A stretch of 16,947 bases of DNA from Stephanodiscus triporus (lineage: Eukaryota > Bacillariophyta > Thalassiosirophyceae > Thalassiosirales > Thalassiosiraceae): positions 1 through 16,947 of the forward strand of contig JALLAZ010000333.1 of the NCBI GenBank assembly GCA_036939755.1. The letters run 5' to 3'. The notes under the pieces are model-generated. The model made no database searches, was not told where the DNA came from, and worked only from the letters and a program-made list of their open reading frames with translations. The translations under genes were made by a program, and so were the position numbers. Each line of letters begins with the position of its first letter. Position 1 is the first letter of the stretch. Below, piece after piece: positions 2,991 through 16,400 of this stretch.

Positions 2991-3275
2991 TGATGGCGCA
3001 TCGCAACACCCTGTCCTGTCGATTGTATAGCGAGCAGCCTGTTCAACAGGAGGAAGAAGCACTTGTGTTTGCTCAGGGCGCGGACAAGAAACCTCAGAGC
3101 AAGCCGAAGAATGACTCTCCATCCAAGAGCTCCTTGTCTTCTGGTTCGGTATCTTGCGGCAGCAAAACTCCAACAATAGTCTGCAAGAATTGTGGCCAAC
3201 ATGGTCACGTATCAACAGTATGCCCTCGCAAGAAGCCACCTGAGCAAATCCATGCCATGGCCAGGGAACCTGATG
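2990..3275 (+). pseudogene. Copia Gag C-terminal fragment with CCHC zinc knuckle
   Basis: The frame with codons at 3182, 3185 and so on encodes CKNCGQHGHVSTVC at 3182-3223, a textbook CX2CX4HX4C nucleocapsid knuckle that binds RNA in Gag. It is followed by PRKKPPEQIHAM, which resembles the post-knuckle segment of diatom copia Gag. Upstream, EEEALVFAQG looks Gag-like, but beyond about 3015 the sequence becomes low-complexity Arg/Asp-rich and is not recognisable as Gag. The frame reads on into the inserted element and stops at 3455-3457. The ATG at 3251 and other upstream starts are not convincing true starts. Confidence 0.75.
3268..3275. repeat. Left target-site duplication (ACCTGATG)
   Basis: The octamer is identical to 3516-3523 and brackets the hairpin element. 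Confidence 0.75.
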
Positions 3276-3515
3276 TTGGAACCCTAAAGGATGGGTACGT
3301 ACGTAAAGTACCCTTACCTAGGGTTCCACTGATACAGTACGCTGATACCTGTTACTCAGCACAGGTCCCACGTATTCCTACGTGGAGTGATCTAACTAGA
3401 TCACTAGCAGGTTTGGGTCGAAGCATGCTTCGACCCTTTTCACCTTTGTTAGTGTAGACCGCATTAATATATTAGAACAACCTTTGTCTAATGTTAATGC
3501 ATTCTAGGCACTAAC
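3276..3515. mobile_element. 240-bp multi-hairpin MITE-like insertion inside the copia relic
   Basis: Nearly all of the 240 bp folds into consecutive inverted repeats. 3278-3327: arms GGAACCCT/AGGGTTCC plus an inner GGGTAC/GTACCC. 3341-3366: GCTGA/TCAGC or, alternatively, ACCTGT/ACAGGT. 3368-3385: CCACGTA-TTCC-TACGTGG. 3386-3405, directly abutting: AGTGATCT-AACT-AGATCACT. 3415-3436: perfect 22-bp palindrome with half-site GGGTCGAAGCA. 3461-3500: long stem with arms GCATTAA/TTAATGC and ATTAG/CTAAT. The last is enclosed by GTTAGTG/CACTAAC (3448-3454/3509-3515). The element is flanked by the 8-bp direct repeat ACCTGATG. Removing one repeat plus the insert (248 bp) puts the gag frame and the protease frame in register. 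It has no coding capacity and only weak terminal inverted similarity. The class is unknown; an 8-bp duplication fits hAT, P or Merlin-type integration. Confidence 0.8.
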
Positions 3516-3523
3516 ACCTGATG
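3516..3523. repeat. Right target-site duplication (ACCTGATG)
   Basis: The octamer is identical to 3268-3275. The protease frame resumes directly at the CCT at 3517. Confidence 0.75.
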
Positions 3524-4031
3524 ATGCCTCCAAGTCCAGTGCAGAGGACAGCATCCTGATCCTTGCCCAGGTGGATGACTCCATCCTGCATGTGCCTCCC
3601 ACAAGTCCCACAGTACCTCCTCGTACTTATGCTGCTGCTCTCCTTGTACACGGTCTGCCTCCTAGCCATCATGGTCACTCCTCTACTCCTGACGATGCCA
3701 TTTTTACTCAAGATGCCACACCGGTGCCTCGCCGTCCCATTGGCTTGGACCTCCTGCTGCTTGACAGCCAGTTGACCATCCATTTATTCTCACAACCGGA
3801 CCACGTCAACAATATCCATCAGGCTACAAATCCTATTCGAGTCCATTGCAACAAGGGTACTTTGGTGACTACTCAAGAAACTGATTTTGGCAACACCCCT
3901 GTGTATTTTGATTCCAGGGGGATTGCCAATGTTTTATCTCTCTACCAGTTGGGCCAGAAGTTCAAAGTCACATATGATAGTACCGTCCGCAGGGGTGTAT
4001 TGAAAGTGTTCACCAAAGCGGGGGTGGTGAG
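3517..4031 (+). pseudogene. Copia aspartic protease (retropepsin) domain
   Basis: The frame with codons at 3517, 3520 and so on runs from the target duplication to the frameshift. It encodes LLLDSQLTIHLF, with the presumed catalytic Asp at 3763-3765, followed by VHCNKGT, GIANVLSLYQLGQKFKVTYDS and VFTK. This matches the retropepsin domain of diatom-type copia polyproteins, where D-S-Q-S/T takes the place of the usual D-S/T-G. The domain would cleave the Gag-Pol polyprotein. Near 4020-4029 a run of five G's marks a one-base loss: the downstream homology (GGEFKP) continues in the next frame, while the original frame ends at 4047. Confidence 0.82.
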
Positions 4032-8334: not shown

Positions 8335-8481
8335 AATTGGGGGCAAATTCACCGCACCCCCTGGTGTGCTAACAAGCATATGTTATGGTTGCAAGGACTA
8401 GTTTAATGTGTGAACTAGTCCTTGCAATCACAAAATATGCCGTGGTACCACTGGAAGTTGGCCCTGAATTTGCCCCCAATT
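8335..8481. mobile_element. 147-bp near-palindromic MITE-like element
   Basis: The sequence is symmetrical around base 8408 with no net indel. The outer arms, 8335-8351 and 8465-8481, are perfect 17-bp inverted repeats (AATTGGGGGCAAATTCA). The inner arms, 8376-8403 and 8413-8440, match at about 25 of 28 positions, including a perfect 15-bp core (TTGCAAGGACTAGTT) around a 9-nt loop. The 24 bp between inner and outer arms have diverged. It has no coding capacity. A target duplication was not identified, so the true ends could lie slightly outside. Confidence 0.7.
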
Positions 8482-8716
8482 AGAAGGGAACAGGTTTAAC
8501 AGCTTAACTGCTAAGTCCGTTCCAGCGGGAACAAAAAACCCCCACCCCGTAGGATTGGTAAATAGGAATTAGTACCGAATCACCATTGTCCCCACACACA
8601 ACAGAACACAAACACCCCCACCATGGTGAGCTGTTCCCCCCTTCAGCAGCGGCATGGGTTTAGTGTAGTATCCGCTCGATCCGACGCAAGGCCGACGCAG
8701 AAGAGGGATAGGGCGA
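8482..8716. other. Non-coding spacer
   Basis: C-rich, A-rich sequence with a short CACCATGGTG palindrome near 8620. No gene, RNA or long repeat was recognised. Confidence 0.4.
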
Positions 8717-15741: not shown

Positions 15742-15887
15742 GATCAATTCGTGATCATTCCACGATGGAATTGGCAATTCTGGCGACGTCACGGCATAAC
15801 GCACATCGAGCGTGATGCCGTGACGTCGGCCGAATTCTGCCCTAACGTAGCTCCGCGAGCATTTTTTACCTGTAAAAACGCTCACGG
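15742..15887. repeat. Cluster of consecutive hairpins, including a double ACGTCA/TGACGT inverted repeat
   Basis: Stems follow one another: GATCA-ATTCG-TGATC (15742-15756); ATTCCA-CGA-TGGAAT (15757-15771); a 14-bp perfect stem CGACGTCACGGCAT/ATGCCGTGACGTCG (15784-15797/15815-15828) that extends imperfectly to about 22 bp and inward by ACGC/GCGT; and GAGCATTTTTTAC/GTAAAAACGCTC (15857-15883), with flanking CCG(C/T)/(A/G)CGG. An AT-rich TTAAATTAAATTAATTAAAT tract follows. It may be a non-autonomous element or a regulatory region; ACGTCA/TGACGT is the bZIP/CRE-type core. Confidence 0.65.
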
Positions 15888-15946
15888 ACCAATTTACTAA
15901 TTAAATTAAATTAATTAAATTCGATGAGCTCCCGAACCAGCCCCCG

Positions 15947-16400
15947 CAACAATAGCAGCCCTCGCGATCCCCCCGCGCGCCCCTCAACAGCGTCGCCCAT
16001 GCCCCCAATCGATTTGGGAGCGCGGGGCATCGCTGACATGGCTCTCCCTCCCACCCTTCTCCAAGAAAAAAATAACCCTTTTCATATCGACGCTGCGCGT
16101 TGTGATGGATCGGATTACCCTCAAGATCCCACCATCCCCCGCGACAAACCCCCCGCGCCCCTCAAGAGCGTCGCCCACGCCCCCCATCGATTTGGGAGTG
16201 CGGGGCATTGCTGACATGGCTCTCCCTCCCCCCTCCAACAATCACCAAAAAAAACCTTTTCATACCGACGCTGCGCGTCGTGAGGGCTGCGCAGCCAAAC
16301 AAGATGCCACCAACAATAGCAGCCCTCCCAACTCCCCCCAGCGCCCCTCAAGCGCGTCGCCAGCGCCCCCCATCGATTTGGGAGCGCGGGGCAATTCTGC
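15947..16400. repeat. Three imperfect tandem copies of a ~180-bp unit
   Basis: GATTTGGGAG begins at 16011, 16189 and 16375 (spacings 178 and 186). Each is preceded by CGCCCCTCAA..CGTCGCC..GCCCCC and followed by GCGGGGCA; the first two copies continue with TGACATGGCTCTCCCTCCC and a CGACGCTGCGCGT block. CAACAATAGCAGCCCTC begins copies 1 and 3 (15947 and 16311). Open frames on both strands cross the array, but no domain is recognisable. Confidence 0.8.

Follow-up and report, generated by a model that had tools for sequence, protein, structure and literature searches.

A solo LTR inside an older copia-like gag-pol

The stretch of Stephanodiscus triporus DNA analysed here (16,947 nucleotides of contig JALLAZ010000333.1; the window) carries a copia-like gag-pol that is interrupted at positions 3274–3516 of the forward strand by a 243-bp insert, TGTTGG...CTAACA. 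This insert is a solo LTR of a Ty1/copia-type retrotransposon, its boundaries being set by copies on other contigs that have identical ends, while some relatives read CCAACA at the terminus instead of CTAACA. Two copies of CCTGA, a 5-bp target-site duplication, border it on the left (3269–3273, forward strand) and on the right (3517–3521, forward strand), and the frame on the gag side is offset from that on the protease side by 248 nt, the sum of the LTR (243) and the duplication (5). When the two flanks of the insert were searched separately, both matched contig C1164, where they are joined on CCTGA present once, which is the empty site. The insert is younger than the copia-like host sequence around it, and would stem from recombination between both LTRs of a full element.

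A first-pass annotation had already described a mobile insertion with target duplication into an older copia-like gag-pol, had argued from the 248-nt offset and had suggested a search for empty sites; the offset holds as 243 plus 5, and C1164 bears out the insertion. The ends that it gave, 3276 and 3515, have to be moved outwards to 3274 and 3516, and the 8-bp repeat ACCTGATG that it took for the duplication is the 5-bp CCTGA plus chance matches: of the additional bases, the A is the one that closes the LTR and the TG the one that opens it, both coinciding by chance with flank bases. The insert had also been described as lacking clear terminal repeats, and TGTTGG/CTAACA is in fact an LTR terminus.

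A search of the window against Rfam returned no families at gathering score. Elsewhere in the window, positions 1–1100 hold a 390-bp tandem repeat in an open frame, whose translation alternates between P/S/N-rich repeats and a conserved stretch, and a long inverted repeat, recognised by eye around ACTAGTCCTTGCAA at 8380–8445, is possibly a separate small element.

Copies of the LTR and a nearly complete element

We searched the assembly (21.65 Mb, 1324 contigs) with 3276–3515 as query and found matches on 17 contigs, the window's own among them; two diverged relatives as further queries brought the number to 23 contigs in all, namely the window's and 22 others, some of the matches being fragments at contig edges. 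Fifteen copies could be placed exactly. Six of them have perfect 5-bp duplications at their flanks, all different (CCTGA in the window, TTACT in C595, ACACA in C96, TTCTT in C1316, ATGAT in C898 and CATGC in C1135), four (C1224, C855, C344 and C1281) are 3' LTRs that directly follow a purine tract ending in ...AAAGGGTG, another four (C1221, C1308, C563 and C1168) are 5' LTRs facing a leader and gag, and C46 is none of these. The duplication is absent from the nine copies outside the first group, eight of which adjoin internal retrotransposon sequence. An unchanged TG start and CA end are seen in 11 of the 15; C344, C96 and C46 are each altered at an end base, and the copy on C1316 ends in CAACA. 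The C898 copy is shortened to 77 bp.

Two further observations concern single copies. The one on C1135 (L033:7844-8557), which has its own duplication, is split by an additional insert several hundred bases long, and the 3' end of the copy on C1050 (L007) runs into sequence that, by eye, is also found at window 8496–8575 (TTAACAGCTTAACTGCTAAGTCCGTTCC...).

The first-pass annotation had proposed looking for copies flanked by other duplications and for an autonomous partner sharing the ends. The former are represented by five further solo copies. A nearly complete element with gag and pol lies on C1281 and consists, in order, of a 5' LTR of which the contig edge leaves the final 38 bases, leader, gag, TGA, pol and 3' LTR. 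Its gag frame is open for 539 codons and its pol frame for 1421. Pfam found RVT_2 as the only domain of this pol, with an E-value of 7e-4 that is under the curated cut-off, and no domain match in gag; several Pol relatives among the matches listed carry PF07727. At an E-value of 1e-10 or better, residues 780–1421 of the pol match 962 relatives, and the 120 of these that were listed include Skeletonema proteins; together with CCRYP tags, which we take to denote Cyclotella cryptica, these names point to a diatom. No Pol relatives were confirmed in viral and prokaryote contigs, and a PDB sequence search gave no match.

The gag/pol boundary of this element (L025:8340-8342, reverse strand) is marked by one in-frame TGA, with CGG directly after it. 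It is a possible readthrough site, like the one proposed for the Candida element Tca2, which is described as having a UGA between gag and pol (PMC2194720).

U3 encodes the Pol tail

The pol frame of the C1281 element continues past the purine tract for 62 codons into the 3' LTR. In the LTR of the window, 60 codons of U3 (3275–3454, forward strand; stop at 3455–3457) are homologous to this Pol C-terminal tail, and the encoded sequence shares 58 of 60 residues with the tail of P0014, a metagenomic Pol, so that a close autonomous relative exists elsewhere. The frame is open for at least 60 codons in 10 of the 15 LTR copies examined and not in those of C1308, C96, C563, C344 and C293; in C46 its final part is out of register. 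Comparisons among nine open U3 copies gave dN < dS in 35 of 36 cases, the pairs being non-independent. In 82 of the 120 Pol relatives listed (of 962), the final 160 residues contain a match to a loose pattern for the junction motif (GCVG and variants), and we infer from these protein sequences that the LTRs of the motif-bearing relatives also begin at that motif. U3 is doubly read, as a Pol C-terminal tail of ~60 residues and as a row of hairpins.

Hairpins in U3

All hairpins of the LTR are given here on the forward strand. The first, H1 (3277–3328), has an outer stem of 3277–3285 with 3320–3328 and an inner stem of 3293–3298 with 3308–3313, and is followed by H2 (3347–3366, ACCTGT/ACAGGT), H3 (3368–3385), H4 (3386–3405) and H5 (3415–3436), which is a perfect 22-bp palindrome, while stem H6 (3448–3515) is formed by GTTAGTG/CACTAAC. 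H3 and H4 abut, each with a 4-nt loop. Both the palindrome and the abutting pair are as the first-pass annotation had described them, and the strong folding that it had attributed to the insert is evident in numbers. Folded as DNA, 3260–3530 has a z of -9.9, with none of 200 shuffles equally stable, and the 243-nt LTR folded as RNA has a z of -8.0 (100 shuffles). By comparison, 97 other 243-nt stretches from the window and other loci (30 shuffles per stretch) gave a mean z of -0.44 with a standard deviation of 1.44 and a minimum of -5.9, two of them lying at -4 or lower; these controls include window 3151–3393, which overlaps the LTR and has a z of -3.1. Strong folding is seen once more in the window, at 15751–15993 (z -5.9), where GACGTCACGGCAT...ATGCCGTGACGTC is found.

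Excess folding recurs among the copies, with a z of -2.1 or lower in 15 of 16 LTR copies (three of them partial) and 0.0 in that of C595. When synonymous codons were permuted with the protein kept, the observed stability was reached by 0 of 200 permutations in five of nine copies, by 5–14 of 200 in three copies and by 58 of 200 in C595; since the fold is mostly lost in such permutations, the encoded protein does not dictate the excess structure. Three other Copia families vary in this respect, the LTRs of C33 (z -2.8) and C737 (z -2.5) folding moderately and that of C876 (z -0.3) having the Pol tail with no excess fold. C876 (L065) also holds two Copia elements arranged head to tail, with a gag-pol, one LTR and another gag that shares 81% identity with the first one.

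An alignment of 12 LTR copies of families A and B, covering 64 pairs in nine helices, was used to look for covariation, which stands out only in H4 and H5. Both show compensatory changes, matched by 10 of 500 shuffles for H4 and by 3 of 500 for H5. H3 is paired in 68 of 84 cells, with 127 of 500 shuffles as good, and H2 (69 of 72 cells) has no covariation test because it is nearly invariant. The enclosing stem noted earlier is present in the window as H6 and is weakly conserved among relatives (58 of 77 cells paired; 367 of 500 shuffles as good). Across all 64 pairs, 85.8% of cells are paired versus 85.1% in shuffles, and double changes occur in 8 pairs (shuffle mean 5.6, maximum 11 in 1000). 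Families C and D have U3 hairpins too, with other sequences, which suggests that hairpins as such are kept.

One may ask how far selection on structure, as the first-pass annotation envisaged it, has to be invoked. The hairpins could instead be the remnant of an ancestral palindrome, or dyad binding sites, held in place by coding and promoter constraint, and the mostly near-invariant stem columns, the pairing no better than in shuffles, the dN/dS comparisons of the Pol tail and the C595 copy with no excess fold are what one would expect on that account. It leaves unexplained the loss of the fold on synonymous permutation, the compensatory changes in H4 and H5 and the differing hairpins of families C and D, and we regard it as somewhat doubtful, if still a serious contender. 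Of the two sides of the case for selected structure, the excess folding, mostly beyond the demands of the protein, stands, and covariation is weak overall.

A matched pair of segments in LTR and leader

The junction between LTR and leader can be read in five elements of three families. In each, the first ten bases of the leader are complementary to a segment of the element's own LTR, at 10 of 10 positions in C1308, C563 and C1281 (where the LTR segment was taken from the 3' LTR) and at 9 of 10 in C1221 and C1168. Between the end of this segment and that of the LTR lie 66 nt in C1281, 52 nt in C1168 and 38 nt in the other three elements, and exact pairing ends at the tenth base. LTR and leader change in step between families, complementarity across families being 5–7 of 10. 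Shuffled LTRs reached the observed complement in 0–2 of 3000 trials for the 10/10 cases and in 27 of 3000 for the 9/10 cases. In the 144,610 bases of DNA examined, exact 10-nt complements at 40–80 nt spacing occur 74 times; because they are this common, it is the fixed position and the covariation that make the case, and not the presence of a complement alone. The corresponding segment of the window, ATATTAGAAC (3469–3478, forward strand), is a predicted self-primer and putative RNA 5' end, placed by alignment only (with C1308, C563, C1221, C1168 and C1281), as befits a solo LTR without a leader.

Similar junctions are seen in further Copia families, with complements of 12 nt in C33 (0 of 2000 shuffles), 16 nt after a 2-nt gap in C737 (0 of 2000), 15 nt including the last base of the LTR in C1310, and only 8 nt in C876 (8 nt reached by 31 of 2000 shuffles); these are weaker and partly circular cases, as the four LTR ends were placed by visual inspection in knowledge of the complement. 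Leader and LTR of C1310 resemble those of C737 by eye, and primer and site both differ from those of C737. At junctions in C1253 and C1196, where LTR ends are unplaced, there is no 10-nt complement, and a crude pattern scan for further self-primed junctions gave 39 hits against 54 in the control.

The complement points to self-priming of the Tf1 type. The RNA of the element would start at the 10-mer (ATATCAGAAC, TAATTAGAAC or TGCTAAGAAC, depending on the family), its 5' end would pair with the leader site directly behind the LTR, and the paired segment would be cut and then prime minus-strand DNA, as in Tf1. In all four elements run, the modelled 5' RNA is predicted to fold into the primer-site duplex. 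With such a start site, the U3 hairpins would be part of both the cDNA and the 3'-terminal region of the genomic RNA, where they may act, presumably in packaging, 3'-end protection or strand transfer.

The five leaders begin GTTCTGATAT, ATTCTGATAT, GTTCTAATTA, GTTCGTAGCA and GTTCTTAGCA. None of them starts with TGG, which excludes whole tRNA 3' ends as primer. In retroviruses, a U5-leader stem lies beside the primer site, and by this precedent the complement could be an accessory stem of the same kind, with a tRNA fragment as the actual primer. Priming by a half-tRNA, as in Drosophila copia, is described for Copia elements (PMC6317226), and a tRNA scan of 17 stretches found none, hence no tRNA to compare with the leaders. 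However, the complement starts at the first leader base, where the 3' end of a primer must pair, and the leader varies with its own LTR between families, which a shared tRNA does not explain; together with the missing TGG, this makes priming by a tRNA fragment unlikely.

That the insert is a MITE-like or other non-autonomous element, mobilised by an unrelated transposase and forming a distinct hairpin class as the first-pass annotation had considered, is very improbable: it is short and structured, has a target duplication and exists in six free-standing copies, but eight of the 15 placed copies adjoin internal retrotransposon sequence as LTRs (four after the polypurine tract, four facing leader or gag), on which ground a MITE or foldback class was rejected, the termini are TG...CA, C1281 has gag and pol between two such ends, and the insert is homologous to a Pol tail.

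We are highly confident in reading the insert as a solo LTR from a family that likely primes itself with the opening ~10 nt of its RNA, on a site behind the LTR. The wider proposal, to which we give an even chance, is that of a diatom Copia group without tRNA priming, in whose 240-bp LTR three messages overlap: the Pol C-terminus, selected hairpins, and promoter plus primer. What appeared to be a new hairpin element turns out to belong to an ordinary class, and the lasting interest lies in how its family is built, with a likely self-primer and a U3 that is both coding and hairpin-rich.

Comparison with known systems

In Tf1 and sushi elements, a short segment at the start of the RNA is complementary to a site behind the 5' LTR. 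The diatom family has the same complement design in another superfamily, with RNA start, cleavage and priming predicted by analogy, whereas Tf1/sushi elements, which belong to Ty3/gypsy, are experimentally known self-primers (PMC5445492, PMC6317226). Within Ty1/copia, the plant TAR lineage, with Houba and Osr-1, has been predicted to self-prime (PMC6317226); these are also Copia elements, although of plants, and are likened to the diatom family by description. Fungal GalEa Copia elements have a Conserved Hairpin Site in place of a PBS, and their authors describe finding no U5 complement (PMC5445492). The likeness is that of a Copia element without a tRNA-type primer site and with the replacement directly behind the 5' LTR, but the GalEa hairpin is within the leader (PMC5445492), whereas the diatom complement is in the LTR, 38–66 nt before its end.

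Among diatom elements, the CoDi lineages of Ty1/copia likewise have short LTRs, and their gag and pol are separated by a single stop or frameshift or by none (PMC2806351), a likeness of general features and not a tree-based assignment to a lineage. The main text of that paper has no primer-site or tRNA term, and its relevant passages mention no primer site, LTR hairpins or Pol frame inside the LTR (PMC2806351). In the open-access literature searched, we did not find self-priming described for Copia elements of diatoms. If true, matched and covarying pairs of primer and site in several Copia families of one diatom would make self-priming a more general substitute for tRNA priming, one that does not depend on the tRNAs of the host.

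In yeast Ty1, the TYB frame extends slightly into the 3' LTR. The diatom Pol frame likewise runs over the 3' LTR, but the overlap here is ~60 codons, takes up most of U3 and is densely folded. Being both coding and densely folded, this U3 offers a clean case for the study of overlapping selection.
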